The notes beneath the pieces are model-generated. The model was not told where the DNA came from. It saw only the letters and a list, made by a program, of their open reading frames with translations, and ran no database searches. The translations under genes were made by a program, and so were the position numbers. A stretch of 21,911 nucleotides of DNA from a virus: IMG/VR virus record IMGVR_UViG_3300010885_086710, positions 1 through 21,911 of that record. One strand, given 5' to 3'. Shown in pieces: positions 134-21,814 of the stretch. Each line of letters starts with the position of its first letter. Position 1 is the stretch's first letter.

Positions 134-157
134 ACACATGAGCTAAAGACTGATGTG
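134..157 (+). repeat. CTAAAGA hairpin R1
   Basis: The arms ACACATGAG and CTGATGTG flank the loop CTAAAGA. One position of the stem is mismatched. The 24 nt are the exact reverse complement of R2 at 216-239, so the two copies can pair with each other perfectly. Similarity to R2 continues for about 15 bases past the hairpin through a CTTTGA segment. Confidence 0.75.
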
Positions 158-215
158 ATTACTTTGATTGACCAATTACAATTTTTTCTAGATTTATATT
201 GATCGTCAAAGAAAA

Positions 216-239
216 CACATCAGTCTTTAGCTCATGTGT
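216..239 (-). repeat. CTAAAGA hairpin R2
   Basis: Read on the minus strand this is the same 24 nt as R1, with loop CTAAAGA, followed by TTTTCTTTG, which gives it a terminator-like look. A TATATTTG box lies 8 bases upstream on the same strand (248-255), so a transcript from there would begin almost directly with the hairpin. Confidence 0.75.
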
Positions 240-247
240 AGTTCATA

Positions 248-255
248 CAAATATA
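248..255 (-). promoter_or_regulatory. Possible host-type -7 box (TATATTTG)
   Basis: On the minus strand the sequence TATATTTG matches the Bacteroidota -7 consensus TAnnTTTG. No clear TTTG or TTG stands about 19-21 bases upstream, so the match is only half a promoter. It lies just before hairpin R2 and would drive the gene beginning at 79. Confidence 0.35.
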
Positions 256-310
256 GTATCCCAGTACTCGAATCGATATCGAGAGAATCCCCCGAAATGG
301 GTAATCTATT

Positions 311-349
311 ATGAAGTACGGATCAGTCTTTAGCTGATCTGTACTTCAT
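311..349 (-). repeat. CTAAAGA hairpin R3, 16-bp stem
   Basis: This is one of the two longest members. On the plus strand the arm ATGAAGTACGGATCAG (311-326) pairs with CTGATCTGTACTTCAT (334-349) around TCTTTAG, with a single G-T wobble. Compared with R6, the stem changes a G-C pair to T-A six pairs from the base while pairing is kept. It lies 3' of the tRNA cluster, so it could end or process the tRNA transcript. Confidence 0.8.
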
Positions 350-375
350 TGATCTACATTTTTTTAGATCACTTG

Positions 376-451
376 TAGGCTCGGTGGGACTCGAACCCAC
401 ATGTGACCATTACCCTTTCTACACTGTATAAGAGTGAGGAGATACGAGCCT
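376..451 (-). tRNA. tRNA-like element, body not recognisable
   Basis: The minus strand holds a perfect 7-bp acceptor stem (AGGCTCG with CGAGCCT), a perfect 5-bp T stem (GTGGG with CCCAC) and a canonical T loop TTCGAGT, with a total length of 76 nt. The 44 nt between acceptor and T arm do not fold into a normal D arm or a 5-bp anticodon arm in any register I tried. The best local helix is a 4-bp CACT/AGTG stem around CTTATAC, which would leave no room for a D arm. It lies directly after tRNA-Gly and tRNA-Arg in the same orientation. It may be a decayed tRNA or a tRNA mimic. I assign no anticodon. Confidence 0.45.
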
Positions 452-459
452 GTTTTTTG

Positions 460-531
460 AGCGATAGGTGGGACTCGAACCCACAGCCCCCAACTTGGAA
501 GGATGGTGATCTACCGTTGATCTACTATCGC
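460..531 (-). tRNA. tRNA-Gly (UCC)
   Basis: The 72-nt cloverleaf has acceptor GCGATAG/CTATCGC with discriminator T, D stem GATC/GATC around AACGGTA, anticodon loop CTTCCAA (anticodon UCC, reads GGA), and T arm GTGGG-TTCGAGT-CCCAC. The anticodon stem has one T-T mismatch. CCA is not encoded. The discriminator and D-loop match typical glycine tRNAs. GGA is a common glycine codon in AT-rich phage genes, which would explain carriage. Confidence 0.9.
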
Positions 532-543
532 TTTCATTTTTAA

Positions 544-551
544 CAAAGATA
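544..551 (-). promoter_or_regulatory. -7-like box before tRNA-Gly
   Basis: TATCTTTG on the minus strand matches TAnnTTTG and lies 12 bases before the tRNA-Gly 5' end. The place where a -33 box would be expected is inside the 24-bp hairpin at 554-604 and contains no TTG. This may be chance, or a start site controlled by the hairpin. Confidence 0.3.
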
Positions 552-553
552 GA

Positions 554-604
554 TATTTTAAACCTAAAATTGAAAATTACATTTTCAATTTTAGGTTTAA
601 AATA
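554..604. repeat. Perfect 24-bp hairpin between tRNA genes
   Basis: Positions 554-577 and 581-604 are exact reverse complements separated by only TAC. The arm starts TATTTTAAACC and ends TTGAAAAT. It separates tRNA-Arg from tRNA-Gly. It has no strong T-run, so it is more like a processing hairpin or operator than a standard terminator. Confidence 0.8.
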
Positions 605-615
605 CAAAAAATCTG

Positions 616-688
616 TAGTTCCCATGGGATTCGAACCCATATTATCGGTTTAGAAGACCAATGTCCTATCCGGTTGAACGAGAGAACT
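616..688 (-). tRNA. tRNA-Arg (UCU)
   Basis: The 73-nt cloverleaf has acceptor AGTTCTC/GGGAACT with one wobble, D stem GTTC/GGAC, anticodon stem TTGGT/ACCGA around CTTCTAA (anticodon UCU, reads AGA), variable loop TAATA and T arm ATGGG-TTCGAAT-CCCAT. The discriminator is A. AGA is the dominant arginine codon in this AT-rich phage, a usual reason for carrying this tRNA. It is the first tRNA behind the promoter at 703-732. Confidence 0.92.
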
Positions 689-702
689 TTTTTTTGTCAC
701 AT

Positions 703-732
703 CAAATATACGATCCATTTCAATTAAATCAA
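703..732 (-). promoter_or_regulatory. Host-type promoter for the tRNA cluster
   Basis: On the minus strand a TTG (732-730) is followed after 19 bases by TATATTTG (710-703), matching the Bacteroidota sigma-A arrangement of TTTG and TAnnTTTG. The predicted start lies a few bases before the tRNA-Arg 5' end at 688. The spacer 689-820 holds nothing else I can support. Confidence 0.65.
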
Positions 733-820
733 TACATTTTTAGGATGATAATTCAGTTATTTTTTCGAAGGGTTAGTACCAATGTCCTTCTTGAAAACAT
801 GTGGAACGTCATTGCCTCGT

Positions 821-1522
821 TTAAAATATGTATTTTTTTACGTCAGAAAACCTATAATCTATGGACTTATTATAAGATGATTCATCGATATAGTTTGTAT
901 TATTAGACAGATATACTCCATGGCAAAATATCTGAGGTGTGAAGGCGTAGGATTTATTTCTGGGCTGTATAGATGAGACGAAATATCGATCTATCTCCAT
1001 GGGAAATTTGTCTCTATAGAGGTTAATAGTCTCAATCATGAGGGATTCACTAGGTGAGTATGCATAGAGTCCCCATAGATTTTTAGATAAAAAGACTTCT
1101 TTAGTTAAAAATCTATCATTTATTATGTTATAGTCCCAAAAAAGACAATCATCGGTTAGAGGTATCCAGCCCAAATATAGAATATCATAATCTTTATCTT
1201 TTATGAACTCATGGAAGGTCGAAAATAATTTTATCGCATCTTCATGTGGACAAACATCATCTTCTAGAATAAGGATTCTTTTGAATCCCCTCGATAGGGC
1301 ATCGTTATAAATACATAGATGGGATATGTTACAGGCCAGATAATTCGCATTTTCGAAAAATGGATTTTTTAATTCTTTCCATATTTTGTTCATCGTGTAT
1401 CCATCACACGCATCGAAAAATTCAAAATCGATATTGAGTCTATTGAATTTTTTTTCTATCGATCGCCTTCTTTCCACATCTCTTTTTAAAGAGAGAACAT
1501 ATATTTTTTCGAAAAAGTCCAT
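821..1522 (-). CDS. Glycosyltransferase family 25-like protein
   Basis: This 233-residue protein resembles the GT25 (LPS biosynthesis/collagen galactosyltransferase-like) family. It begins with the typical YVLSLKRDVERRRSIEKKF segment (residues 8-26), has the FFDACDG strand near residue 37, and carries ILEDDV at 85-90, whose acidic residues would bind the metal-nucleotide sugar. A PQIFCHG-like segment near the C-terminus also fits. I chose the ATG at 1522 over a TTG at 1534, because the TTG lies almost in the preceding terminator hairpin. It is probably cytoplasmic, with no signal peptide. Acceptor and sugar are unknown; phage virion protein, host glycan or modified DNA are all possible. It lies just downstream of the terminator of the 135-residue gene and upstream of the tRNA promoter. 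Confidence 0.75.
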   Translation of the reverse strand: MDFFEKIYVLSLKRDVERRRSIEKKFNRLNIDFEFFDACDGYTMNKIWKELKNPFFENANYLACNISHLCIYNDALSRGFKRILILEDDVCPHEDAIKLFSTFHEFIKDKDYDILYLGWIPLTDDCLFWDYNIINDRFLTKEVFLSKNLWGLYAYSPSESLMIETINLYRDKFPMEIDRYFVSSIQPRNKSYAFTPQIFCHGVYLSNNTNYIDESSYNKSIDYRFSDVKKYIF

Positions 1523-1538
1523 ATTCAAATTCAATGAA

Positions 1539-1571
1539 AATGAAGGATAGTTGAATCAACTATCCTTCATT
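1539..1571 (-). terminator. Terminator hairpin after the 135-aa gene
   Basis: A perfect 14-bp stem, AATGAAGGATAGTT (1539-1552) with AACTATCCTTCATT (1558-1571), has a 5-nt loop. On the minus strand it is followed by TTTCATTG. It lies between the stop at 1580 and the next start at 1522. Confidence 0.65.
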
Positions 1572-1579
1572 GGATTGCA

Positions 1580-1987
1580 TCATTTCGCATTATCTAAAAT
1601 ATCCCTTTCCTTTTTAGTTAAGGAATCTATGCCATGCTCATTTATCTTATCCAATATAGAATCAATGTTAGATTCGGTTTTGTCAGTAGTCAAGGCAAAA
1701 TCAGATTTTTTGACTTTTTTATATGAAATACTTTTCATCTCCCTTAGACCGGAAATGTAATCTTCATTTATGAGAATATTTTTTCTACCGTTTTCCCTAT
1801 CTATCCAATAGACCAAATCTAGACTAGAAGCATCTAACCAAATCTTTTGTATACCATTCTTTTTCATTTGCCATAGTTCATCTGCATCCATGTTCGTAAA
1901 TTCCATATTTTCGATCATCTCATCTATCTCAGTTAGAGATCGAAGAGATGTTAAATGTATACAAATTAAGTTTGTGTAGTCAAACAT
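1580..1987 (-). CDS. Unknown protein with rhomboid-tail-like C-terminus
   Basis: The 135-residue product has no signal peptide or membrane segment. The first 95 residues are not recognised; they contain a tryptophan-bearing segment (DELWQMKKNGIQKIW) and an INEDYISGLREMKS segment. The last 30 residues, with IDSILDKINEHGIDSLTKKE, resemble the short C-terminal domain (DUF6576-like) common on Bacteroidota rhomboid proteases and some other host proteins, consensus roughly D-x-ILDKI-x-x-x-G-x-DSLT-x-x-E. This points to a Bacteroidota host. The gene has a good host-type promoter at 2046-2077 and its own terminator, so it is probably expressed early as a single gene. Function is unknown. Confidence 0.7.
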   Translation of the reverse strand: MFDYTNLICIHLTSLRSLTEIDEMIENMEFTNMDADELWQMKKNGIQKIWLDASSLDLVYWIDRENGRKNILINEDYISGLREMKSISYKKVKKSDFALTTDKTESNIDSILDKINEHGIDSLTKKERDILDNAK

Positions 1988-2045
1988 TTTTTTAATTGAG
2001 GATTAAGGTGAGTTGGGGAGATTTTCTGTCCTTTCGGACTTGATA

Positions 2046-2077
2046 CAAAGATAACAGATCTTCTCAATAGATACAAA
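2046..2077 (-). promoter_or_regulatory. Host-type promoter of the 135-aa gene
   Basis: On the minus strand TTTG (2077-2074), a 20-base spacer and TATCTTTG (2053-2046) form a full match to the Bacteroidota -33/-7 pattern. The leader of about 50 bases contains a small GTCC-GAAA-GGAC hairpin (2027-2038 region). Confidence 0.7.
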
Positions 2078-2138
2078 CTTTGTTTACATTTTGCATTTTC
2101 GAAAGTGGAAAATTCTCATTTTGAATGTGATTATTTTT

Positions 2139-3395
2139 TCAATAACCATAGTACAATCCATATGTACCATCTGTTTCTCTCAATTCGAAGACATCGTCAG
2201 TTGAATCAAGATAATCTGGATCGTTTGACAATAAACCACTTCCATCTGATTTTATCTGCACATAAGGCAATGTATCTAAGAATGGATACTCATCAAAAGA
2301 AGCGTATTTTAATTTAACTGAAATGGGATATGTTAACGAAGTTCCATTTTTAATTCTAGCAAATTTTTCTGATATTGAATCTTGGTATTTTTTATAGGAC
2401 CATCCATTATGTATGGCAAAGTTTTTAAACAATTCCACATCAGAATCTTTATTGTAGTAGATTCTATCCATGAACATATCACCATTTTCCAATTTCCAAA
2501 GAAGAGCTCTACCGTCTATTTTTGTACCCGTTAATTTCCCATCTTTAAAGACAACACTTTTTGGTGAATACAAGATAACCAATTGACAAACATCTGAATT
2601 ATCACAATATATACCAAAATATTTCCCACACTCTTCATAGGACATACACGAATCATTGAGAACCGTTGATTTATTTTTATCCTCATAGTTTTCCCGATAG
2701 TACCATTTTTGGATATGATATCCCCGAACTATATCAAATCTCGAAAAAGCACTATGGTAGATGTCCCAAGCGGCCTTATATCCATTCACAAATTTTTCCA
2801 ATTCAGAAGATGTGAACTCCATTCCGGATTTAGTCAAAATCCCATTCACAAGTCTTCCTACTTTACCATAGTCTGATCGTTTGGAATATAAATGTGAATC
2901 ACCAGTGTATTTAGTTAGATAATTTTTGAACATACAACATGTTTCGATATTCCCATCTGGGCTCTTAAATTCGAAAAGAACATAAGTATGTCCACTTTCA
3001 GTATCGGCAAATTGGGATTTTACTATCCCCAATTGTCCGACCCTTGGTGGAGAGGGATTTTCTAGAGGGGGACTTTTTGGACTAAAGCCAAGTCCGTCAA
3101 AAATTTTCTTATAAATATACTCACCATTTGGATATTTTAAGTAATTTAAAACATATGGAACTGTCCTGACTTTATACAACTCGGTTTTAGCAATCTCTCT
3201 AGATTTCTCATCGGCTATGAAAGAAATTTTATCATTTTCATCTCGTGATATCTCTAAATAGTTATAGACAAGATTTGGTATCTCAGTATTTAAAAACGAT
3301 AAATCCATCAAATAATTTCTTATCCGATCGTCTTTAGACATTATTCTAAGAATTGCGCCAAAATCATCCGAATATTTCAAGGTACCTTCATTCAT
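2139..3395 (-). CDS. Conserved-looking phage protein of unknown function
   Basis: The 418-residue product has no signal peptide and no membrane segment. I recognise no named family. Its clearest feature is a central segment STVLNDSCMSYEECGKYFGI with two cysteines seven residues apart, followed by YCDNSDVCQLVILYSP, then GRALLWKLENGDMFMDRIYY and DSDVELFKNFAIHNGW. I have the impression that similar segments occur in unnamed proteins of other large phages, but cannot verify this. An ATG also exists at 3458; I prefer the ATG at 3395, because the extra 21 residues would be encoded by hairpin R4, a dispersed non-coding element, and the same order (13-nt box, hairpin, ATG) is seen before gp25. Little can be said about its role. 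Confidence 0.7.
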   Translation of the reverse strand: MNEGTLKYSDDFGAILRIMSKDDRIRNYLMDLSFLNTEIPNLVYNYLEISRDENDKISFIADEKSREIAKTELYKVRTVPYVLNYLKYPNGEYIYKKIFDGLGFSPKSPPLENPSPPRVGQLGIVKSQFADTESGHTYVLFEFKSPDGNIETCCMFKNYLTKYTGDSHLYSKRSDYGKVGRLVNGILTKSGMEFTSSELEKFVNGYKAAWDIYHSAFSRFDIVRGYHIQKWYYRENYEDKNKSTVLNDSCMSYEECGKYFGIYCDNSDVCQLVILYSPKSVVFKDGKLTGTKIDGRALLWKLENGDMFMDRIYYNKDSDVELFKNFAIHNGWSYKKYQDSISEKFARIKNGTSLTYPISVKLKYASFDEYPFLDTLPYVQIKSDGSGLLSNDPDYLDSTDDVFELRETDGTYGLYYGY

Positions 3396-3407
3396 CGGCA
3401 AAGAAAA

Positions 3408-3430
3408 CACAGAAGTCTTTAGCTTCTGTG
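3408..3430 (-). repeat. CTAAAGA hairpin R4
   Basis: Read on the minus strand, CACAGAAG pairs perfectly with CTTCTGTG around CTAAAGA, followed by TTTTCTTTG exactly as in R2. Compared with R5 (CACATCAG/CTGATGTG), three consecutive stem pairs differ and all remain paired. The start codon at 3395 lies 12 bases downstream, so the hairpin probably occupies the 5' leader. Confidence 0.8.
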
Positions 3431-3506
3431 ATGAATTTGAACTTAAATAATTTAACATAGGACATACAAAATAATTTACGATATTTTAAAAACAAAGTTT
3501 AGAAAT

Positions 3507-3519
3507 GTAATGTATATAT
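3507..3519 (-). promoter_or_regulatory. 13-nt box ATATATACATTAC, copy A
   Basis: This 13-nt string on the minus strand occurs identically at 11727-11739 and 20999-21011. All copies are intergenic and, in two cases, precede a CTAAAGA hairpin and then a start codon. It may be a phage promoter element recognised by a phage sigma factor. The assignment is inference. Confidence 0.45.
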
Positions 3520-3537
3520 TGTATAATGAGTATCCGC

Positions 3538-3569
3538 TCAGACTTCTGTGAAGAAGCATACTCTGTGAA
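3538..3569 (-). repeat. 32-nt companion element of hairpin R5
   Basis: On the minus strand this segment matches 21821-21852 at 30 of 32 positions. In both places it follows a CTAAAGA hairpin after 7-8 bases. It contains its own small hairpin CTTCT-TCAC-AGAAG and, in this copy only, GAGTAT pairs with ATACTC further downstream. Confidence 0.75.
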
Positions 3570-3576
3570 GTCCGAA

Positions 3577-3601
3577 ACACATCAGTCTTTAGCTGATGTG
3601 T
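3577..3601 (-). repeat. CTAAAGA hairpin R5
   Basis: This is a perfect 9-bp stem, ACACATCAG with CTGATGTGT, around CTAAAGA on the minus strand. It lies between the sigma-factor stop (3686) and the box at 3507-3519, and is followed by the 32-nt companion element. It is the cleanest copy of the family. Confidence 0.85.
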
Positions 3602-3685
3602 AGTTCATCGACCAATTTTGATAATTTTTTAATTGCTGGCACCAAAGAAAAGCAATGATATGATTCACAATCGAATGTCATTGAA

Positions 3686-4291
3686 TCATCGATCAGAATC
3701 GATTTTTTCGAATCTACTCTTTGTTTGGTTTATGAGAATTATCCTACCATTTCGGATCTGACTTTTGATGGTAGATAAGTTTCTATTCAACTCCAGGGAT
3801 ATGTCCCTATAAGACATCTTTTTTATCTCCCTCATTTCTATGACACTCTTATAGGGATCTTTGAGGGATTGTATTTGATCCATCATTATTTGAGCTTTCT
3901 TTTGGATCACATCTTGTAAGGTAATATCTACTGGATCATCTTCCTTTATAAAATCTTTTAAGCTAGATCCATCTTCATCATATTCAACATCTAAAGAAAT
4001 AGTTTTTTTGGAAACCTTTATATCTTGTAAGAGAATGTTTCGAGCTATGGTAAAGAGCCAAGTAGAGAACTGTGACTTATCCTTATCATATTTGTCTATT
4101 TTCTCGAAAGCAGTCATGAAGGAATCAGTGGTGATGTCTTGAGCTTTTTGAACATCCCCACACATCTTGGATGTGTAGTAAATCAGTTTTGGGTAATACT
4201 TTTTATAAAAAAAAGTAAAGTCATTTCCCGTTCTTTCCTTAAAATAGAGTTCATGTTCAGTAAAGGTCTTGCCTTCTGGTAATTTGATCAT
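3686..4291 (-). CDS. ECF-type RNA polymerase sigma factor
   Basis: The 201-residue protein has the two-domain layout of extracytoplasmic-function sigma factors. A sigma-2 region spans about residues 20-95, with FYKKYYPKLIYYTSKMCGD and the region 2.4-like FSTWLFTIARNILLQD. A sigma-4 helix-turn-helix region spans about 135-190, with MSYRDISLELNRNLSTIKSQ. The linker is acidic. It would bind host RNA polymerase core and redirect it to phage promoters. T4 uses gp55 for late genes; this protein could fill that role, and the AT-rich boxes at several starts are candidate targets. It is divergent from the 628-residue glycosyltransferase and has a host-type promoter at 4327-4356, consistent with earlier expression. 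Confidence 0.88.
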   Translation of the reverse strand: MIKLPEGKTFTEHELYFKERTGNDFTFFYKKYYPKLIYYTSKMCGDVQKAQDITTDSFMTAFEKIDKYDKDKSQFSTWLFTIARNILLQDIKVSKKTISLDVEYDEDGSSLKDFIKEDDPVDITLQDVIQKKAQIMMDQIQSLKDPYKSVIEMREIKKMSYRDISLELNRNLSTIKSQIRNGRIILINQTKSRFEKIDSDR

Positions 4292-4326
4292 TTTTGAAAA
4301 ATTTAGTTTATTTGTAAAAACTTTAA

Positions 4327-4356
4327 CAAAGATAAAGCATAGAGATATGTATCAAG
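4327..4356 (-). promoter_or_regulatory. Host-type promoter of the sigma factor
   Basis: On the minus strand CTTG (4356-4353), 18 bases and TATCTTTG (4334-4327) approximate the Bacteroidota -33/-7 pattern. It lies about 35 bases upstream of the sigma ATG at 4291. The upstream half overlaps the leader of the divergent glycosyltransferase, so the two could affect each other. Confidence 0.55.
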
Positions 4357-4358
4357 CA

Positions 4359-6245
4359 ATGGATAAGAAAAAATTAAACATATTAACTAGGTGTACAAGA
4401 CTTCAAAATCTCTTAGAAGTACGTCAGAGCATATTCAATCATCTAGAAAAAAGTCCCCACTCAAAATGCATAGATTTGTATTGGTATATATTATTTGACA
4501 CCTCATTCTTATCACAAATCCCAACCGATATTCTAAACTTTTCCAAAGATAAGAGAATAAAATTTAGATTTTCTAAGGGCCAACCACAAGATCTTGGACA
4601 TAATTTAATCAACGAATGCATCAATGATGACATAGAATCAGGATGGGTTTATGTCCTAGATGATGATACGGTGATGCATCAAGATTTCATAGATAGTATC
4701 TATGAGGCCATATCAAACAATAAAGATATAGGCGGAATCTTTTTCCATCAAAAAGTGGATGGGAAAGATTTCACCAAAAAAGATATACGATATGCCACCC
4801 CGGATTCTGTCAAGGTATCGAAAATAGATTTTGGTCAATTTATTCTGAAAAGAGAAATAATATCTGATACTAAATTGGTCAGTGGTACCTATGTTGCAGA
4901 TGGTATTTTCATAGAAGAAATCTACAATAAAAATGATAAAAGTCAATTTTTATTTTTAGATAAGATCCTTTCCTACTACAATTTCTTATCTGATAATAAA
5001 AATGAGTCTGACTTTTTTTTACCTAGAATTCTAATAGTTGGTGATAATATACCAAAAACGTTAACTAGTCAATATTTATCTGATTGGGAGTCGACTGATC
5101 TAAAATGTTTACACATATGTGATGATAAAAATATTGAAATTTTGTTATCCGAATTTAATCCAGATTCGATCGTGACTTCTGTTGAAAATTTTGACATATA
5201 TGAAAACTTAAATTCTCTTCCATATGAAATTAGAAGAAGATGGATAAACATAGATCCAAATCATACAGATGCTCACATAGGACAACAATCTTATTCATGT
5301 TCAAAGAACTTTATTCTAAACCCGCCCGATCACACATCGGGGAATAAAACTAACCCCTTGGTTAGTTTTTTTACTCCTTTTTATAATACTGGAAAAAAAT
5401 TAAAGAAAGCATATGAATCTCTAAAAAATCAAACATATTCAAATTGGGAATGGGTCTTAGTCAATGACTCAGATGAGGAGTCTAATGAAACTCTCAATAT
5501 AGCAAATGATATGTCTAAGAATGATCCTAGAGTAAAAGTTTTTGACATATATCCAAGAACAAAGGGTATAATAGGTGAATCCAAATATAGAAGTGCTTGT
5601 TTGTGTAGTGGGGCATATTTGGCCGAGCTCGACCATGATGATTATCTTCTGCCCGATGCATGTTTGTACATAGTCAAGGCCTTCGATAAATACAAAGAAT
5701 GCAAATTTGTGTATTCGGACTGCGCCGAGATATACGATAATAATGAATCATTAACATATGGGAATGGGTTCGCATTTGGATATGGGAAATATAGAGATGA
5801 AGAACATAGAGGCATTGTATACAAAACTTGCATAACTCCTAATATAAATCCAAAGACGATACGACACATTGTTGGTGTGCCAAACCATATACGAGTATGG
5901 GAAAGGGAATTCTATCACTCCATAGGGGGACATAACAGAAGACTTTCCATTGCCGATGATTATGAAATAATTGTAAGGACGTTCCTGAATACAAAAATGC
6001 TCCATATACCAAAATTATTATATTTGCAGTTTTACCACTCTTCAAACACTCAAGATAAAAGAAGATCAGATATACAAAGAAGAGTCCGCACAATCTCTGA
6101 TTTCTACTGCATGGATATAAATAAGAGATTTAAAGATCTGGGCCTAAAGGACTGGGCGTATGACGAGAATAATTTAAATCCCCTATTGAGTTGTAGTGTA
6201 TTTGGACCTGAGGAGCAAGTAGCAAATCTTACTTACGGTATCTAA
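4359..6245 (+). CDS. Two-domain glycosyltransferase, C-terminal GT2
   Basis: The 628-residue product has two glycosyltransferase-like parts. The N-terminal part (about 1-200) resembles a GT-A fold with GWVYVLDDDTVMHQDF near residue 120, whose DDD would be the metal-binding motif. The C-terminal part (about 335-590) is a clear family 2 domain: VSFFTPFYNTG start, SLKNQTYSNWEWVLVNDSD, and AELDHDDYLLPDA. A linker with Rossmann-like segments (RILIVGD) joins them. No membrane segment is visible. I chose ATG 4359 because GATATGTATC, similar to boxes before other starts, lies 5 bases upstream; ATG 4347 is possible and an earlier start would overlap the sigma gene. It may transfer one or two sugars to virion protein or host glycan. 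Substrates are unknown. Confidence 0.8.
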   Translation: MDKKKLNILTRCTRLQNLLEVRQSIFNHLEKSPHSKCIDLYWYILFDTSFLSQIPTDILNFSKDKRIKFRFSKGQPQDLGHNLINECINDDIESGWVYVLDDDTVMHQDFIDSIYEAISNNKDIGGIFFHQKVDGKDFTKKDIRYATPDSVKVSKIDFGQFILKREIISDTKLVSGTYVADGIFIEEIYNKNDKSQFLFLDKILSYYNFLSDNKNESDFFLPRILIVGDNIPKTLTSQYLSDWESTDLKCLHICDDKNIEILLSEFNPDSIVTSVENFDIYENLNSLPYEIRRRWINIDPNHTDAHIGQQSYSCSKNFILNPPDHTSGNKTNPLVSFFTPFYNTGKKLKKAYESLKNQTYSNWEWVLVNDSDEESNETLNIANDMSKNDPRVKVFDIYPRTKGIIGESKYRSACLCSGAYLAELDHDDYLLPDACLYIVKAFDKYKECKFVYSDCAEIYDNNESLTYGNGFAFGYGKYRDEEHRGIVYKTCITPNINPKTIRHIVGVPNHIRVWEREFYHSIGGHNRRLSIADDYEIIVRTFLNTKMLHIPKLLYLQFYHSSNTQDKRRSDIQRRVRTISDFYCMDINKRFKDLGLKDWAYDENNLNPLLSCSVFGPEEQVANLTYGI

Positions 6246-6265
6246 AATCCATTATTGTGGATTTT
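6244..6265. terminator. Bidirectional terminator between convergent genes
   Basis: AAAATCCA (6244-6251) pairs with TGGATTTT (6258-6265) around TTATTG. It overlaps the stop codons of the rightward glycosyltransferase and the leftward hub gene, whose ends are only 6 bases apart. A/T runs on both sides fit termination in either direction. Confidence 0.7.
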
Positions 6266-7814: not shown

Positions 7815-7820
7815 GAAGCC

Positions 7821-7830
7821 ATATATATCA
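7821..7830 (-). promoter_or_regulatory. AT box before hub start (TGATATATAT)
   Basis: A TGATATATAT box lies 6 bases upstream of the ATG at 7814. Similar boxes precede the 2H phosphoesterase, terminase and DUF5872-like genes. It may be a phage late promoter with a very short leader, or a translation-initiation signal replacing Shine-Dalgarno. Confidence 0.4.
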
Positions 7831-7872
7831 TATTCACCCAATCAGACTGAATGATAGGCAATGATTGAGCAA

Positions 7873-7907: not shown

Positions 7908-7913
7908 AAATTT

Positions 7914-9367: not shown

Positions 9368-9370
9368 AAA

Positions 9371-11780: not shown

Positions 11781-11819
11781 ATGAATTACACATAAGTTTT
11801 TAGCTGATGTGTAATTCAT
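11781..11819 (-). repeat. CTAAAGA-type hairpin R6 before gp25
   Basis: ATGAATTACACATAAG (11781-11796) pairs with CTGATGTGTAATTCAT (11804-11819) with one A-G mismatch. The loop is TTTTTAG on the plus strand (CTAAAAA on the minus), one base off the family loop. Against R3, several stem pairs differ with pairing kept. The gp25 start at 11846 follows after 26 bases. Confidence 0.75.
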
Positions 11820-12873: not shown

Positions 12874-13749
12874 CTAATTATTGTAATTACGATGAGTGTA
12901 ACCATAATGTGGCAAACTTTCATTTTCTCCACCCATTAAAGTTTTTCTCTTACCTTGAGCTTGTGATTGAGCCTGAGCTTGTGCCTGACCTTGAGCTTTA
13001 GATTGTCCTTGAGCTTGTGCCTGACCTTGAGCTTGTGCCTGACCTTGAGCTTTAGATTGTCCTTGAGCTTGTGCCTGACCTTGAGCTTGTGCCTGACCTT
13101 GAGCTTTAGATTGTCCTTGAGCTTGTGCCTGACCTTGAGCTTTAGATTGTCCTTGAGCTTGTGCCTGACCTTGAGATTGACCTTGAGATTGTCCTTGAGA
13201 TTGTCCTTGAGCTTGTGCCTGACCTTGAGCTTTAGATTGTCCTTGAGCTTGTGCCTGACCTTGAGCTTGTCCTTGAGCTTGTGCCTGACCTTGAGCTTTA
13301 GATTGTCCTTGAGCTTGTGCCTGACCTTGAGCTTTAGATTGACCTTGATCTTTAGATTGTCCTTGAGCTTTAGATTTCACTTGAGCTTGTGCCTGAGCTT
13401 GAGTTTGTCCCTGAATTTGAACTTGCACTTGAGATCCCTTTTTATTGTTTTGTTGGATCTCAACCCCACCAACTAAAGCAGTAGCCGGAATCTTATCGAC
13501 ATCTATGCCGTGTAGAGTGGTATATCTGACCATATCTTCTGCTATGTCGATATCACCATGGAATTTTCTAATGTCTTTACCTGTGAATTGTTTCACTTTT
13601 TCCACATATGAATCGATTAGTGATTGTGGGACATCTACAGCAATTTTTACTCTGTAGACATCATCTACTTGCATAACTGATTCAGATAGTCTTTGAGATT
13701 GTTGATTTTTTGTTTTTGAGAACGGTTTAAAGGATTTAATGTATGTCAT
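12874..13749 (-). CDS. Gln/Ala/Gly/Ser/Lys repeat protein
   Basis: The 291-residue protein has three parts. The N-terminal 105 residues look folded, with [20 protein letters not shown] and [18 protein letters not shown]. Residues about 106-265 are low complexity, built from alternating GQAQAQ and GQSKAQ units encoded by 18-bp repeats. The C-terminal 25 residues are basic and polar and end in Tyr/Asn. The repeat is uncharged apart from regular Lys and is rich in Gln, so it is likely extended or self-associating. The N-terminus YIKSFKPF loosely resembles the KxFESF tag of two other proteins. Start ATG 13749 has ATATATACAT one base upstream. The stop is TAG, with TAA three codons later. Function is unknown; a virion or head-internal protein is possible. 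Confidence 0.75.
12955..13430 (-). repeat. 18-bp tandem repeats in coding sequence
   Basis: About twenty units of two kinds alternate (plus strand): TTGAGCTTGTGCCTGACC and TTGAGCTTTAGATTGTCC. Edges of the array are degenerate. The antisense frame at 12967-13476 is open only because of the repeat. Copy number is likely to vary by slippage or recombination. Confidence 0.9.
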
Positions 13750-13784
13750 TATGTATATATTTTTTAGAAAAAATGAAAAGGTAA

Positions 13785-14294
13785 CTATTTTGAAGAAATG
13801 AACAAATATGTTAAAATAAAATATGAAGCTATAAGAATAATAGTTATTTTTTTATATCTTCTAATTTCCCTTTCTTTATATTTGACAATTTCATTAGAAT
13901 ATTCTAGAGATTTATTACATATTTCTGATTTATTTGAATAATTATTTATTTGATCATTAAGTTTTTCAATTATTTGTTTATTGTATTTATCGAGATCTTC
14001 TAAAGAAGAAACTTTTATCTTAAAAAGTTTTTGAGTGTTTTCATACTCATTGAGTAAAAGGACATACCTATCATTTAAAGTATCATTTTCCGCCCTAAGA
14101 TTTTTCAGAAGAGAATATAACTGCAATTTTTTAGAGACATCACATGCCTGGCTCATAGATATTATAATTCCGACAGTATCAGACCCGACTACATACCAAG
14201 TAGGAAATTTGTCCACATTGATTGTTTGAGACTTCGAAGACAGGGGTAAAATAAACAGTAAGCATATTGATATCGATGTTAATATTCTTTTCAT
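13785..14294 (-). CDS. Exported coiled-coil protein, possible spanin partner
   Basis: The 169-residue protein starts with a signal peptide ([20 protein letters not shown]), followed by a globular stretch with [20 protein letters not shown], a coiled coil at about 60-140 ([16 protein letters not shown] onwards) and a C-terminal membrane segment at about 148-166 ([16 protein letters not shown]). The order, exported N-terminus and membrane-anchored C-terminus, recalls unimolecular spanins, but there is no lipobox cysteine next to the signal peptide. Its ATG overlaps the stop of the upstream gene, so the two are translated together. A role in host lysis is possible. It may also be an unrelated periplasmic protein. 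The stop is TAG. Confidence 0.65.
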
Positions 14295-14737
14295 TTAAGT
14301 AAAAGTGATTTTTTTAAAGAAATCATAATTTCTTTTTTAGGAACAGGAGTTGTGTCATTCTCTATTCTTTCTATATCTTTTTCAATGATTGATTTTCTTT
14401 CTAGTTTGGCGTTTAACTTAATTTTCAGTGTATTTATATTTCCCAAACTTATATTCAATTTTTTAGATATAGAATCTATATATTTTCTTTTTTTACCATC
14501 TTCAACCAAAAGAGAGTCGACTTGGTGACTTTCCCTGGTTAAAATTTTTTGTATAGAATCCTGTTTATATTTAAAATATTTGAGTCTGTCATCGTACTCT
14601 TTCATGGAGGGACTTTTATCCCCATCTGTATATTTGGGTAGATAAATAGTTAATAGTGAAAAAATGAAAATGCCAATTAGTAAAATACCTAAGTAGGTAT
14701 ATGCCCTTTTCGATAAGATAATTATTATTTTATTCAT
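14291..14737 (-). CDS. Membrane-anchored coiled-coil protein, Rz-like
   Basis: The 148-residue protein has one N-terminal membrane segment (about 13-33, YLGILLIGIFIFSLLTIYL) and then a charged region with heptad-like spacing to about 130, with many Lys, Glu, Ile and Leu. This is the layout of inner-membrane spanins (Rz), which span the periplasm and fuse membranes at lysis. It is encoded between ClpS (stop 3 bases upstream) and the 169-residue exported protein (4-base overlap), so all three are in one operon. No holin or endolysin is visible nearby, which weakens the lysis reading. No sequence family is recognised. Confidence 0.65.
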   Translation of the reverse strand: MNKIIIILSKRAYTYLGILLIGIFIFSLLTIYLPKYTDGDKSPSMKEYDDRLKYFKYKQDSIQKILTRESHQVDSLLVEDGKKRKYIDSISKKLNISLGNINTLKIKLNAKLERKSIIEKDIERIENDTTPVPKKEIMISLKKSLLLK

Positions 14738-14740
14738 ATT

Positions 14741-15013
14741 TTAAGAAATTTCCACTGTTACCGTGAGACCATTTGATTTTAATTTTGTGTAGGAATCATT
14801 TACAGTATCATGATCACCTCTTTTGACATCACATTTTCCATTAAAATGAACGATATTTGCGCACTGGTTAGCCTGTTCATATTCGTGCCCACAATATTTG
14901 ATAAGGATCGATATCACATGATCAAATGAATTATGATCATCGTTATGTAACATCAACACATAGGGTTGTGATAGTTTAAAGTCTATTTGGGATTCTACTT
15001 CTTCTTTTACCAT
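14741..15013 (-). CDS. clpS: ClpS-like adaptor protein
   Basis: The 90-residue protein resembles ClpS, the adaptor that delivers N-degron substrates to ClpA/ClpC-ClpP. The signature appears as VLMLHNDDHNSFDHVISILI (residues 18-37), with HNDD and the following acidic His/Val positions of the binding pocket. It continues with YCGHEYEQANQCANIVHFNG and KCDVKRGDHDTVNDSY. The QCANIVHFNGKC pattern matches the Bacteroidota ClpS subtype more than the proteobacterial one, which suggests uptake from a host. It starts 43 bases after the terminase stop. In infection it could redirect or block the host Clp protease. Whether it still binds N-degrons cannot be seen. Confidence 0.85.
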   Translation of the reverse strand: MVKEEVESQIDFKLSQPYVLMLHNDDHNSFDHVISILIKYCGHEYEQANQCANIVHFNGKCDVKRGDHDTVNDSYTKLKSNGLTVTVEIS

Positions 15014-15055
15014 GATTTTTACTTAAGTTTTTTTAGATCAATTCATCTAAATTGT

Positions 15056-17206: not shown

Positions 17207-17221
17207 CCATTATATATATGG
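17207..17221 (-). promoter_or_regulatory. AT box before the terminase (ATATATA)
   Basis: CCAT-TATATAT-ATGG lies directly upstream of ATG 17206, so the box ATATATA ends 5 bases before the start codon. It resembles boxes before the hub, 2H and DUF5872-like genes and may be a late promoter element. Confidence 0.35.
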
Positions 17222-17312
17222 ATGTAATGGGGTCTATCTATGAACAATTTCCTTCCCATTCTCTAAAATATTTCAGATCATTCAAAAGATATTTGGAATG
17301 ATCAGATCAAAG

Positions 17313-17912
17313 ATGTCGCAAAAAGAAGATAAAAAAAAATCCCTAGAAGAAGAACTCAACCGTATTCAAAATGACAACCAAGATTTGGTCGTTAGTAATT
17401 ATATTGCCCAAGAAGAAGATATCCCCGATTTTGGATCAATAGAGATCTACGACTACAACAAAGATGTTGAAGATTCCAATAAATCCGCAAAAGAACTCAT
17501 GGAATCTTTATTCGAATTCTATTTCAAGGATGTGCCTGGCATAAAGGAAAATAAATATCTCATGAAAAAAATAGAAGAGGATGCTCTCGTTTATGCAGAA
17601 TCAATATTTCTTCAAAAAATGACAAGGAGGAATTTTATAAAACAACTCAGTCAAGTCGATAGTGGATCTGATTCAGCTCGACACCATGAGGTCATAAACG
17701 ATACTGTTTCCCAAATAAGAGATAATATAAAATTCTCACAGAGCCAAAGGACAGAGCTCGAGAAGTATTACAAGGAAATGAGAAAGGATTACGATGAGAT
17801 GTTATCTCATGTGGATCCCGTCGAAACGGGGGATGGTGAAGATGGAGGAAAAATATACGATGCTCGGACCCTCAATGATATAATCGATAAGGCCATGAAA
17901 TCAAGAATTTAA
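17313..17912 (+). CDS. Acidic helical protein, possible small terminase subunit
   Basis: The 199-residue protein is rich in Glu, Asp and Lys and mostly helical. Segments include KKKSLEEELNRIQNDNQDL near the start, SAKELMESLFEFYFKDVPGI (about 66-85), and a coiled-coil-like stretch with RTELEKYYKEMRKDYDEML (about 145-163). I recognise no family. It is divergent from the large terminase across 107 bases, and a T4-type small subunit is a helical protein of about 165 residues encoded beside gp17, so position, size and helical content are consistent with that role. I chose ATG 17313; an ATG at 17298 lies inside a hairpin formed by GATCATTC and GAATGATC (17276-17303). That hairpin could affect translation. 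Confidence 0.6.
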   Translation: MSQKEDKKKSLEEELNRIQNDNQDLVVSNYIAQEEDIPDFGSIEIYDYNKDVEDSNKSAKELMESLFEFYFKDVPGIKENKYLMKKIEEDALVYAESIFLQKMTRRNFIKQLSQVDSGSDSARHHEVINDTVSQIRDNIKFSQSQRTELEKYYKEMRKDYDEMLSHVDPVETGDGEDGGKIYDARTLNDIIDKAMKSRI

Positions 17913-18758
17913 AGTGAACTGATTCCAATTCATTACTCTTTCATTCATTCCACTTATCCTCAATGGGACCTTTAAAAAAGTTACTTTCTGTAATTCATTA
18001 TCGTTGATCTTATGGATCCAAAGAACAGGTGATTTTTTTTCCAGAATATCCTTCACTATCTCAACAATATTTTTTTCGGATTTGGATAGTGTATATTCAA
18101 GAAACTTATTCAAATTTGTGCCTATATCCAAAACATCCCTACTTGAATCATAGTAATGTATTTGGTCATATCTAGGCAAAGACACGTTGGTCATTATCCC
18201 ATCTTTTATTTCGAATCCTATGAGGTGATCAATGATGATTGACATTTTTTTCTCCCTGATCTCACTCTCATCTGATGTCTTTAAATTTTCTGAAATTGTG
18301 AAGAATTTCTTTATTTTAAAACCAAAATTATTGGACTCTAATTGAAATTTATTTATAATCGTCGAGAAGTTCCTTTTATTTTGGGATGATAGTATAATAT
18401 AGTTATCATCTTCTTTAGATATTGATGACATAATTTCATATTTTATCTCAATTTTCTTATCATCTATGACTCCCTTCTTATCGAATTCTGATAAATCGAA
18501 TTCGATATCTTGCATATAAATTTTGTTTCTATCACAAATTCTCTTCAATTTTTCATAGAATTCTTCCGATGCCCAGTATCTGCCCGAGTGGGTATTTATT
18601 TCTCTGTTTGATCCCCTAAAGACCCCGCTTTTCAATATTTCAAAATCAGATAAATCTATCTTGGAGAGAACATGATCTGGATCATTCTTATCTACAATTC
18701 GAACACCTATGTCCAATATGGAAACGATTGCATTGAAATCTATGAAATTAGCTCTCAT
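17901..18758 (-). CDS. Unknown protein, possibly degenerate HAD-like
   Basis: The 285-residue protein has no signal peptide. Its middle and C-terminal part follow an order reminiscent of HAD phosphatases of the RNA-repair (SAK) type: NYIILSSQNKRNFSTIINKF (about 118-137) at the place of motif II, and YDQIHYYDSSRDVLDIG (about 206-222) at the place of the final acidic motif. The N-terminal DxD nucleophile motif expected in HAD enzymes is not evident. This match is weak and from memory only. Its ATG overlaps the stop region of the Nudix gene, so both are translated from one message. If the HAD reading is right, it could process nucleotide or RNA-end phosphates with the Nudix protein. It converges with the 199-residue gene and overlaps it by 12 bases. 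Confidence 0.6.
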   Translation of the reverse strand: MRANFIDFNAIVSILDIGVRIVDKNDPDHVLSKIDLSDFEILKSGVFRGSNREINTHSGRYWASEEFYEKLKRICDRNKIYMQDIEFDLSEFDKKGVIDDKKIEIKYEIMSSISKEDDNYIILSSQNKRNFSTIINKFQLESNNFGFKIKKFFTISENLKTSDESEIREKKMSIIIDHLIGFEIKDGIMTNVSLPRYDQIHYYDSSRDVLDIGTNLNKFLEYTLSKSEKNIVEIVKDILEKKSPVLWIHKINDNELQKVTFLKVPLRISGMNERVMNWNQFTLNS

Positions 18759-19323
18759 TTAAGTTTAGATAATTTTTTAATTTCATTAACATAAACTCGG
18801 TCACCACATCTGATGATGATATTGAATTTATGTATTTGATATCAACTTTTATTGTCTCACTCATTTTTTCTAATAAACTACCATCCCCCATTATGGCAAT
18901 CTCACTATAATCACCTTCACTTAAAGGAATTATTGCAAAATGGAACCTATTGACGAATCCCTTTGAGTAAAACAATGGCCCCTCTAAATCTATTTTATAT
19001 CCATCTCTGAGTACGATACCAGCTTCCTCTTGTAATTCTCTTGACATTGCTTCCTCAATGTTCTCACCCTCTTCGACACCACCTCCTACACATACAACAT
19101 GTTGTTGATTACCATCTGCATATTTAAATGATGGTACATATTCCCTTCGTATTATGAATCTATTTTGCTCAATAAAATATGGGATACAAATTACACAATC
19201 ATTGCTTTTGATTATAGGCCATTCTTCATATTTGAAAATCTCCATATCATTATCCTTGTATAGAGTATCTTCCTTTTTGGTATGTGAGTCTTTATCTGAT
19301 TTAAGATTAGAGAATTTTCGCAT
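18748..19323 (-). CDS. Nudix hydrolase
   Basis: The 191-residue protein has a complete Nudix box at residues 81-103 (G-x5-E-x7-REL-x-EEAGI; it reads GGVEEGENIEE then AMSRELQEEAGI). Upstream, NRFIIRREYVPSFKYADGNQ is typical of ADP-ribose or sugar-nucleotide pyrophosphatases such as NudF. The first 26 residues are a charged extension; an internal ATG at residue 27 could also be a start. It would hydrolyse a nucleoside diphosphate linked to another group; candidates are ADP-ribose, NAD-related compounds, nucleotide sugars or mRNA caps. With three glycosyltransferases in the region, a nucleotide-sugar substrate is also possible. A TATATTTG box at 19363-19370 may be its promoter. Confidence 0.88.
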   Translation of the reverse strand: MRKFSNLKSDKDSHTKKEDTLYKDNDMEIFKYEEWPIIKSNDCVICIPYFIEQNRFIIRREYVPSFKYADGNQQHVVCVGGGVEEGENIEEAMSRELQEEAGIVLRDGYKIDLEGPLFYSKGFVNRFHFAIIPLSEGDYSEIAIMGDGSLLEKMSETIKVDIKYINSISSSDVVTEFMLMKLKNYLNLNES

Positions 19324-19362
19324 TTTGTTTCTTTGTTAAAAATTTTTTTAGGCGATTATATA

Positions 19363-19370
19363 CAAATATA
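19363..19370 (-). promoter_or_regulatory. -7 box before the Nudix gene (TATATTTG)
   Basis: TATATTTG on the minus strand matches TAnnTTTG and lies 40 bases upstream of ATG 19323. No -33 TTG stands at the expected distance, though TTG occurs 11 bases upstream. The spacer 19371-19507 contains only AT-rich sequence. Confidence 0.4.
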
Positions 19371-19507
19371 CACCTTTTGATCAATTTTTGATCTATTATG
19401 TTCAAAGTCTGATTCGATTTAAGAAAAATTTAAAAAAATTTAATTAAAGTTGATGAATCTGAGGGGGGTATATATCATAATGTTGCAGCTTTTTTAAACT
19501 CATTAAT

Positions 19508-19990
19508 TCATTTTGAGTAATTCGGACTTCTTTTGCTTCCTTTTTTACCTTCTTTTTCGGCTTTTCTTTTTCTTCGAACAGCATTTGCTTTTTCCTTATC
19601 GGTCATTATTGCAGCCACTTTAAATTTTCTACATTTTGGATAAGCTCCCTTATGAGCATCTTTTCTTCCACAGGGAGGATGGGTTCCGTCTTTATTTGTT
19701 TTTGAGATATCTACCCATTTTTCATCAAACCATTTACGAAGATTTTCATTAAATTCATCAAAGTTTTCTATGGATTCATTAGATTCGACTGCCCACTTAC
19801 CACCTTTACTTTTATATCTTTTGGCGGCTGCCCCACAGGCATATGCCGATGGCCAAACATCATATTTTCTTTTGGCCCAGGCTACGCAACTGTTCCATAG
19901 ACGTTTGTCTTTAGGGACATTTTTCTCAACAAGTAGATAATATTGTTGATCGTATTGATCAAAAGATTCAAAAGTTTTAATATTCGCCAT
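19508..19990 (-). CDS. DUF5872-like basic protein
   Basis: The 160-residue protein has two recognisable parts. Residues about 29-70 (LWNSCVAWAKRKYDVWPSAY, then ACGAAAKRYKSKGGKW) and 84-125 (LRKWFDEKWVDISKTNKDG, PPCGRKDAHKGAYPKCR) resemble the DUF5872-type domains seen in large DNA viruses and phages, with a conserved Cys pair. The C-terminus is strongly basic (AVRRKRKAEKEGKKGSKRSP), which suggests nucleic-acid binding. The N-terminus ANIKTFESFDQYDQQYYLLV carries the KTFESF tag shared with the hydrolase at 12214; it may direct the protein into the head. Start ATG 19990 is preceded by TGATATATATCA. Function is unknown; a DNA-condensing or injected head protein fits the composition. Confidence 0.78.
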   Translation of the reverse strand: MANIKTFESFDQYDQQYYLLVEKNVPKDKRLWNSCVAWAKRKYDVWPSAYACGAAAKRYKSKGGKWAVESNESIENFDEFNENLRKWFDEKWVDISKTNKDGTHPPCGRKDAHKGAYPKCRKFKVAAIMTDKEKANAVRRKRKAEKEGKKGSKRSPNYSK

Positions 19991-19994
19991 TATC

Positions 19995-20006
19995 TGATAT
20001 ATATCA
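19995..20006. promoter_or_regulatory. Shared divergent AT palindrome TGATATATATCA
   Basis: A perfect 12-nt palindrome stands between the divergent starts at 19990 and 20030. It is four bases from the DUF5872-like ATG and 23 bases from the fucosyltransferase ATG. Since it is symmetrical it could serve both genes. Confidence 0.45.
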
Positions 20007-20029
20007 AAAAAGAAAATTTAAAATACATA

Positions 20030-20869
20030 ATGATAGCTGTTACTTTAATGGGTGGCCTGGGAAATCAACTTTTTGAGTATGCCTTTGCCCGCAGTTTATC
20101 GATAAAATACCAAAAAGACCTTAAAATTGATCTTTCTTTTTTGAAAAGAAAAGATTTGGGTCTAAATTTCGTTTACCGGAATTATGATTTAGATTTGTTT
20201 CACACAATTGAAGATTTTAAAATTGGATACGAAAGTTTCATCAGAATTGATGAAACTCATTTTCATTACTCACGAGACATTGTCGATTCAATATCTAATT
20301 TCTCATCGTCGAATTTAATACTTAATGGATATTGGCAATCACCAAAATACTTCCATGGATTTGAATCCGACATTAAATCAGAATTTCAATTTAAGAAAAA
20401 AATAGAAAATTCTAATGATGAATTGATTAAAAAAATGCATCAAAAAATACAAAATGAAAATTCAATTATGGTCAGTGTCAGGAGAACTGATTACTTAAAT
20501 TCAAATTTTCATGCCTTAGTTGGGATCGATTACTTCGAATCTGCAATCGAAGAAATGAAATCTAAAGTCGACAATCCACATTTTTTCATTTTTTCGGATG
20601 ACATACCATGGTGTCACCAAAATTTAAAAATAGATAATTCAATTTTTGTTGATCATTCGTATTCTGGGGAAAAATTCGGATATTATCTCCAGTTAATGTC
20701 TTCTTGCAAAAACTTCATTATACCAAATAGTACTTTTGCTTGGTGGTCGGCTTGGCTTTGTGAAAATGAAAACAAAATAATAATTTCACCTAAGAAATGG
20801 ACAATTGATGATTCCATCGATACAACGGACCTGATCCCGAAATATTGGACAAATCATCTCTGGATTTGA
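20030..20869 (+). CDS. GT11 alpha-1,2-fucosyltransferase-like protein
   Basis: The 279-residue protein matches family 11 fucosyltransferases, which transfer fucose from GDP-fucose to galactose in alpha-1,2 linkage. Motifs in order: GGLGNQLFEYAFARSL (8-23), NGYWQSPKYF (99-108), VSVRRTDYLN (148-157) and NSTFAWWSAWLCENE (233-247), the donor-binding region. The usual HxRRxDY motif has Ser in place of the first His, which could reduce activity or mark a subfamily. No signal peptide or membrane segment. I chose ATG 20030; an upstream frame to 19943 overlaps the divergent gene. Such enzymes are common in Bacteroidota glycan clusters, so transfer from a host is likely. In a phage it may decorate virion protein or change host surface sugars. 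Confidence 0.88.
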   Translation: MIAVTLMGGLGNQLFEYAFARSLSIKYQKDLKIDLSFLKRKDLGLNFVYRNYDLDLFHTIEDFKIGYESFIRIDETHFHYSRDIVDSISNFSSSNLILNGYWQSPKYFHGFESDIKSEFQFKKKIENSNDELIKKMHQKIQNENSIMVSVRRTDYLNSNFHALVGIDYFESAIEEMKSKVDNPHFFIFSDDIPWCHQNLKIDNSIFVDHSYSGEKFGYYLQLMSSCKNFIIPNSTFAWWSAWLCENENKIIISPKKWTIDDSIDTTDLIPKYWTNHLWI

Positions 20870-21408
20870 AAAAATTACCAAAACTTACCTTTAAAAAAAC
20901 ATACATGTTAAGTAATTGCATAAAAATTTAGATCACTTGGGTGATTTTTGATTTGATATCCTTGCGTTTCTCGATACCTAGGGGAGATTAATAATATGAT
21001 ATATACATTACTCTTCATGGGCTTCCTTTAGGACCCACACAAACCCATAGGGGAATTAAAAAATATAACAAACAAATAGGGCAACGTTTGCCCGAATTTA
21101 CGCTTGTGGACAACCCAACTATGGATGACAAACTCAGTAATGAGGTACTAAAAAGTAGTGGTTGGATGAAACAAGAAAATCAACGTGAAACGAACTGTAT
21201 AAGTTTGTGTAACTTTGATTGAACGGTCAGGTATGACCCAGATAGGACATGAAATACCTGGATTTCCAGAATCTTTCGAAACCTCAAGATATCCAAATGA
21301 AAAATGGGCCAAGTGGCTTATATTTGTATATCATTACCTTTGTTAAGGGTCATCCTTGCATGTAATTACCTACACAACATTCAAAAACAAAAAAAAATAC
21401 TCATCTCT
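20870..21408 (+). other. Long spacer with small uncertain frames
   Basis: No gene can be firmly supported in these 539 bases. A frame stays open from 20995 to TGA 21222; its only ATG (21121) gives 33 residues starting MDDKLSNEVLKSSGW. A second frame, 21233-21346, gives 37 residues starting MTQIGHEIPGFPESFETSRY. Both have plausible composition but no recognised family, and could be remnants of one gene. Hairpins are present at 21079-21093 (GGGCAA-CGT-TTGCCC) and 21228-21260 (CAGGTAT/ATACCTG). The 13-nt box lies at 20999-21011. Confidence 0.35.
20999..21011 (+). promoter_or_regulatory. 13-nt box ATATATACATTAC, copy C
   Basis: Identical to copies at 3507-3519 and 11727-11739. It shares flanking positions with the 11727 copy, including a GGACCCA some 20 bases downstream. 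The next clear gene to the right is the lipoprotein at 21409, with small frames in between. Confidence 0.45.
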
Positions 21409-21612
21409 ATGTCAAAAAAACAAAAACTTTCCATCGCCATACTAGCTACAATTTCAACATTTTTGTTAGGTATTTTTGTAGTATCGTGTTCAAATGTGTC
21501 CAAGCCAGAATCCTCTTCACTGGACTCCACTCATGTGGACTCCACTCATGTGGACTCCACTCATGTGGATCCAACAAGTGTAGATTCTACTCTTGCAGAT
21601 TCATTGCGATGA
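21409..21612 (+). CDS. Small lipoprotein with five-residue repeats
   Basis: The 67-residue protein has a lipoprotein signal: MSKKQKLSIAILATISTFLL, then GIFVVSC with the lipobox cysteine at residue 27. After cleavage about 40 residues remain, rich in Ser, Asp, Thr and Val, with tandem DSTHV units (three exact, then DPTSV and DSTLA). The mature part is short, extended and has no folded domain I can name. It would be attached to the host membrane, possibly the outer membrane. Phage lipoproteins of this size often act in superinfection exclusion or lysis, but nothing in the sequence decides this. I chose ATG 21409; an upstream start at 21304 would put residues before the signal. A strong terminator follows at 21691. 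Confidence 0.75.
   Translation: MSKKQKLSIAILATISTFLLGIFVVSCSNVSKPESSSLDSTHVDSTHVDSTHVDPTSVDSTLADSLR
21522..21581 (+). repeat. 15-bp tandem repeats in the lipoprotein gene
   Basis: GGACTCCACTCATGT occurs three times exactly (21522-21566), followed by a degenerate unit to 21581. The repeats encode DSTHV units. The exact DNA identity suggests recent expansion. Confidence 0.85.
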
Positions 21613-21690
21613 AAAAGATTGGATTTGTTCTATTTGCCAATTAAAAAATTAAATACAACTGGTGGATTGGAGGACTATTGGTCATCCCCT

Positions 21691-21723
21691 AAATTCCCAT
21701 CATTTAGATGGGAATTTTTTTTT
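21691..21723 (+). terminator. Strong rho-independent terminator
   Basis: AAATTCCCATC (21691-21701) pairs perfectly with GATGGGAATTT (21707-21717) around ATTTA, followed by a run of T. It ends the lipoprotein transcript. Confidence 0.9.
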
Positions 21724-21790
21724 CATATAGTTCATATCATCACCTTACCGAACCACTAGCATTCTTTCACTGTGGAAAGATAACGGATTA

Positions 21791-21814
21791 CGCATTATCT
21801 AAAGACTAATGTGC
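21791..21814 (+). repeat. CTAAAGA hairpin R7 (degenerate)
   Basis: The loop CTAAAGA and right arm CTAATGTG are kept, but the left arm CGCATTAT has two mismatches. It is followed after 6-8 bases by the 32-nt companion element shared with R5, which confirms that it belongs to the family. Confidence 0.6.

Follow-up and report, generated by a model that had tools for sequence, protein, structure and literature searches.

Several described systems resemble the hairpins that we analyze here, and two of them, the palindrome-associated transposable elements (PATEs) of Haloquadratum and the solo IS605 stem-loops of Borrelia, are the nearest precedents. In IS608 (ISHp608), cleavage occurs at the tetranucleotides TTAC and TCAA, which pair with the guides AAAG and GAAT at the base of the hairpin (PMC5934647). 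Derivatives that retain IS605-type ends without a transposase are known as PATEs in Haloquadratum, where deletion of the core between two palindromes yields fused ends (PMC3119063), and a PATE-like element of Halanaerobium is built likewise (PMC7290912). On Borrelia plasmids, solo LE and RE stem-loops of IS605 lie apart from any transposase, and some of these free-standing structures have extended perfect stems with compensatory changes (PMC2775950). The TnpB guide RNA of ISDra2 is ∼150 nt long and spans the 3′ end of tnpB through the RE plus ∼16 nt of flank, and its target motif is the insertion site of the element (PMC8612924). TnpB has already been noted as frequent in phages, megaphages included (PMC12607003), while PATE-type derivatives in large phages have no description in the open-access literature that we searched, a body of work outside which most subscription papers fall.

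The window analyzed here is a complete IMG/VR record of 21,911 bases from a large T4-like phage, and its terminase is 60% identical to those of 634- to 642-kb phages. An earlier note on this sequence had described seven hairpins with a nearly fixed CTAAAGA loop (TCTTTAG on the other strand) and compensated stems. We recovered all seven (R1 to R7) at the same positions and well above chance: five window sequences match a 23-bp consensus with ≤3 mismatches, with 0 expected from 100 dinucleotide shuffles, and the one altered loop is that of R6, which reads TTTTTAG. Across 1.47 Mb of related loci, CTAAAGA/TCTTTAG is also by far the commonest 7-nt loop in perfect hairpins. Both sides of the stem vary at 7 of 8 pairs, and 96% of cells are paired, compared with 77% after shuffling (0 of 500 shuffles reached the observed value), in a set of copies partly chosen by pairing. 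The covariation survives a choice of copies that is independent of pairing, since in a set picked by loop and flank only the paired share is still 91%, whereas shuffling gives 61% and at most 66%. The structure is under selection, as the note had proposed, and we conclude that the hairpins are almost certainly palindromes that lie subterminally at the left (LE) and right (RE) ends of an IS605-type transposon and its non-autonomous derivatives, with the folded single strand as the end signal. The motif, for which the note knew of no description, belongs to the known IS200/IS605 kind of transposon.

The anatomy and homology of the elements are directly apparent in related phages. The hairpins fall into two roles according to their arms, with a B/C-type hairpin (CACAGAAG, CACACAAG) followed on the same strand by an A-type hairpin (mostly CACATYAG), and between them lie either divergent tnpA and tnpB genes (L122 and L198) or tnpB alone (L237). 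The two subterminal hairpins thus share one orientation, and the elements lack terminal inverted repeats. Pfam assigns the element genes to Y1_Tnp (1.8e-31), OrfB_IS605, Cas12f1-like_TNB, and HTH_OrfB, and the phage TnpA, a Y1 HUH transposase, matches the ISHp608 transposase (PDB 2a6m; E = 1.7e-15), and its HIH pair (HUH) and KQYI tyrosine align with those of that protein. When 64 tnpA loci were collected by protein only, an LE hairpin lay ≤600 bp 3′ of tnpA in 34 and a second hairpin (RE) 0.7 to 2.6 kb away in 29, with the hairpin missing from the other 30 under a strict search. Stems in these loci are as unlike as CCCATTTG and CCCACAGG, and the loop is identical. Intact tnpA or tnpB was absent from the 21.9-kb window, which holds only 3′ remnants of tnpB, at R5 and R7.

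A close comparison is with Helicobacter pylori IS605, represented by Helicobacter phage UKEN32U (KX119206), in which tnpA and tnpB are likewise divergent and the transposase is 58.6% identical to the phage TnpA. Just 3′ of tnpA, this element carries CCCAAATA-TCTTTAG-TGTTTGGG, with the same loop as the phage hairpins, and at its other end a second hairpin followed by TAATTCAC. The stems differ, being CACAnnnn in the phages and CCCAnnnn in H. pylori IS605/IS608, and, unlike the H. pylori elements, those described here reside in large phages. Parabacteroides phage PF672P2 (OP172820), a 61-kb phage of another group than the window phage, encodes TnpB with the RE hairpin CCCATAAG-TCTTTAG-CTCATGGG-TAGTTCAC, which has a matching GAAG guide. 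We note that the product of PF672P2_00027 (L280) is annotated as a hypothetical protein and reads as TnpB with an intact-looking RE hairpin. The residence of a lineage in large phages is a modest novelty; this kind of mobile DNA is known, and its host is little described.

Boundaries and guide code can also be read directly from the alignments. Left ends retain TTTAT, and right ends retain TAGTTCAT, with conservation falling from 1.6 to 0.3 bits right after TTCAT, so that the element boundaries fit TTTAT on the left and TTCAT on the right. As in IS608, each cleavage site is a tetranucleotide that pairs with a guide at the base of the hairpin, although the sites themselves are TTAT and TCAT rather than TTAC and TCAA: the phage code is TTAT/AAAA at the LE and TCAT/GAAA or TCAC/GAAG at the RE. 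All three guide pairs are present in 29 of 30 LE and, within the tnpA set, in 29 of 29 RE, and sites and guides change together (TTAC/AAAG, TTAA/AAAT, and TCAC/GAAG). Within the window, R5 fits this code, R4 has a mutated left site, and R2 departs from it by a single mismatch at its RE side. The guide code marks the IS200/IS605 mechanism at the DNA level, and an RNA model of any sort would have difficulty accounting for it.

By analogy with this mechanism, the Y1 transposase TnpA would bind each end as a folded single strand and read the invariant TCTTTAG loop; the stem would covary because TnpA reads the loop and the stem need only pair. The hairpin-foot guides, AAAA on the left and GAAA on the right, would pair with TTAT before the LE and TCAT after the RE and so place the cuts, and the element would exit as a single-stranded circle and reinsert 3′ of TTTAT. 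This insertion rule derives from the boundaries only, as no exact empty site was found among related loci, in two collection scans, or in twenty records. Copies without tnpA or tnpB would be either moved in trans or decaying, and the window copies would have been bound, cut, and moved in the way predicted here.

The most complete window copy is R4-R5 (3386 to 3608, plus strand), a non-autonomous, PATE-like LE-RE element with a deleted core. It is one element made up of an LE, the 3′ end of tnpB, and an RE. Its LE hairpin, R4 (CACAGAAG-TCTTTAG-CTTCTGTG; 3408 to 3430, plus strand), keeps the AAAA guide, and the upstream TTTAT site has mutated to TTCAT, a change predicted to leave this element unable to move. 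A remnant of the tnpB 3′ end (RSDFCEEAYSVKSETH; 3535 to 3582, plus strand; tblastn E = 6.8e-4 against TnpB of L122) precedes R5, an RE hairpin followed by TAGTTCAT (3577 to 3608, plus strand) with the GAAA guide at its foot, and the 71-mer at 3538 to 3608 is identical at 67 of 71 positions to the RE of the tnpB-bearing element L169. R7 lies on the minus strand with a tnpB 3′ end that runs off the contig end (21776 to 21911; hairpin, 21791 to 21814); its tnpB tail at 21823 to 21894 is detected by tblastn (E = 1.8e-5), and the region is 86.5% identical to L169 over 126 bp. R2 (193 to 246, plus strand; hairpin, 216 to 238) is a fused one-hairpin element, with the TTTAT cleavage site at 193 to 197, an LE-type left flank (GTCAAAGAAAA), and an RE-type right flank (TAGTTCAT, 239 to 246), an LE-left/RE-right arrangement as expected from deletion between two palindromes.

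The remaining copies, R1, R3, and R6, are worn solo ends. R1 (CACATCAG-TCTTTAG-CTCATGTG; 134 to 157, minus strand) shares the CTCATGTG mismatch with R2 and so is probably a partial copy of it in inverted orientation. R3 (ATGAAGTACGGATCAG-TCTTTAG-CTGATCTGTACTTCAT; 311 to 349, plus strand) and R6 (11781 to 11819, plus strand) are RE-like hairpins with 16-bp stems that are unlike those of the active LE or RE and that the TnpA rules leave unexplained. They recall the solo IS605 ends of Borrelia, including those with extended perfect stems; the Borrelia stems have a bulged T and another sequence, whereas the phage stems have no bulged T (PMC2775950). R6 occupies a 144-bp gap between gp44 and gp25, a gap that is 21 to 33 bp long and hairpin free in 15 of 15 syntenic relatives. 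The earlier statement that no copy is clearly inside a gene needs some qualification. R4 falls within a long open reading frame (ORF; 2139 to 3458), in an extension of 22 amino acids at the N terminus, just ahead of the probable start at MNEG, and R6 overlaps the gp25-like ORF only in an upstream extension, with relatives starting later, at M[AP][FA]DFTDFYI. The ORF at 2139 to 3458 returned no relatives when used as a query for related loci. Directly beside R4-R5 is a gene for an ECF-like sigma factor (Sigma70_r2 and r4_2; 3686 to 4291, minus strand).

There is good evidence that non-autonomous copies have moved: phage record G019 contains two tnpB-less copies that are ∼97% alike between their boundaries (counted on the alignment) and have unrelated flanks. 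These two copies and the window elements at 3386 to 3608 and 193 to 246 all have IS605-type palindromic ends too close together to hold a transposase, as in PATEs; near identity at unrelated sites was seen for the two G019 copies and for none of the window copies. Fused LE-left/RE-right hairpins occur in L011, L013, L103, L119, and L153 as well as in R2. Such fusion sets the LE guide AAAA against the RE site TCAT with one mismatch; a change of this site to TTAT in L013 makes the pairing complete again.

The phage elements differ from the Haloquadratum and Halanaerobium PATEs in their phage host and in that several tnpB-less copies, indeed most of these elements, retain a guide-RNA-like segment near the RE (L095, L012, L141, L182, L187, and L225); this segment is absent from R4-R5. 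The hairpin in this segment has a GGGAC/GGAAC loop that is conserved and a stem that differs between subtypes and still pairs, as judged by inspection; a MAFFT pair count had a gap out of register and was not used. Retention of the segment may be passive. We also raise, as a speculative and rather unlikely alternative, that tnpB-less phage PATEs keeping the tnpB-derived reRNA segment may be mobile guide RNAs, with TnpB of autonomous copies acting in trans to cut empty alleles beside TTTAT and so protecting insertion sites in phage populations.

A covariance model of 34 hairpin copies, an approach that the earlier note had suggested, found further copies in related phage records. It matched all 39 hairpin-bearing records searched whole, which had been chosen for carrying the motif. 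When 49 records were instead selected because their terminases are related, 15 matched at E ≤ 0.01 and only two strongly (3e-13 and 3e-9), indicating that the motif is sporadic across the phage clade; the lack of hairpins in most terminase-related phages is as expected for a mobile element. In the 39 hairpin-bearing IMG/VR records, 27 of 110 hairpins lie ≤200 bp from a contig end against 1.6 expected, and multi-copy IS605 repeats appear to break phage assemblies, both ends of the window included. When the element was looked for in bacteria, the hairpin pattern turned up in 14 genome contigs, all of which lack the TAGTTCAT box, and a TnpA search at E ≤ 1e-20 returned no match in 296 genomes of one phylum. 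As that search had no positive control, we make no claim of phage restriction.

The hairpins could instead act as RNA, with a protein-binding loop, as terminators, processing sites, or the promoter/stem-loop cassettes of T4-like phages that the earlier note had brought up. Intergenic placement and strong covariation would suit such a role, one of the seven hairpins is terminator-like by score (on the minus strand only), and transposon ends can be exapted, as with the lipoprotein-linked IS605 stem-loops of Borrelia that are conserved at the RNA level (PMC2775950). We consider this very improbable, however, because the hairpins occur on both strands, most terminase-related phages lack them, R6 is absent from its 15 syntenic relatives, and the sequence outside the hairpin is explained by tnpA/tnpB and the guide code. 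Neither a consistent association with promoters or T-run terminators nor a conserved position across related phages was found, leaving the cassette proposal unsupported, and the terminator and processing-site proposals fare no better, given that the hairpins read as ends of a transposon and that two still have a tnpB remnant attached. Of the suggested protein-binding sites, a DNA-binding partner is plausible in the form of TnpA, and a phage-specific control element is unsupported.

We give almost no credence to the idea that a site-specific tyrosine recombinase uses the hairpins as crossover sites, with inverted arms flanking an asymmetric core of 7 bp. The LE-left/RE-right hybrids are joined at TCTTTAG and many contigs end near hairpins, as such sites might predict, but repeat-mediated core deletion explains the hybrids, as in PATEs (PMC3119063), and assembly breakage by a multi-copy IS explains the contig ends. 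Moreover, the element boundaries lie outside the hairpins, and the enclosed genes are a Y1 HUH transposase and tnpB, with no tyrosine recombinase; this att-site model was dropped on finding tnpA/tnpB between the hairpins. Anticodon-loop mimicry by CTAAAGA was also dropped, as there is no tRNA-like context and the loop is TCTTTAG on the active strand of the transposon.

With the hairpins identified as IS605-type ends, what looked like a new control motif of phages becomes a mobile element of a known kind. The case also cautions that an invariant loop on covarying stems does not have to indicate RNA, since the same pattern is selected by transposases that recognize single-stranded DNA in folded form. 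The elements provide a signature for searching viral metagenomes for IS605 and PATEs (a TCTTTAG/TCTTCAG loop, TTTAT...AAAA-hairpin, and GAAA-hairpin-TAGTTCAY) and add a group of phage-borne candidates for TnpB guide RNAs, for which TTTAT is the predicted target motif.

The window contains another perfect hairpin at 21691 to 21717, AAATTCCCAT-CATTTAG-ATGGGAATTT, which recurs with an unchanged loop (CTAAATG on the other strand) in five terminase-related loci (L038, L040, L044, L046, and L060) and is possibly a conserved terminator. Rfam detects only two tRNAs in the window. A tRNA-like stretch at 378 to 452 (minus strand), with a T-arm (GTGGGTTCGAGTCCCAC) and acceptor stem pairs GGCTCG/CGAGCC, is absent from the ARAGORN output and from the Rfam hits at the gathering threshold and is possibly a degenerate tRNA adjoining tRNA-Gly and tRNA-Arg. 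The ORF at 12874 to 13749 (minus strand) contains a long low-complexity repeat of 10 residues, and a ClpS-like adaptor protein (PHROG "ATP-dependent protease") is encoded at 14741 to 15013 (minus strand), adjoining the large terminase gene.
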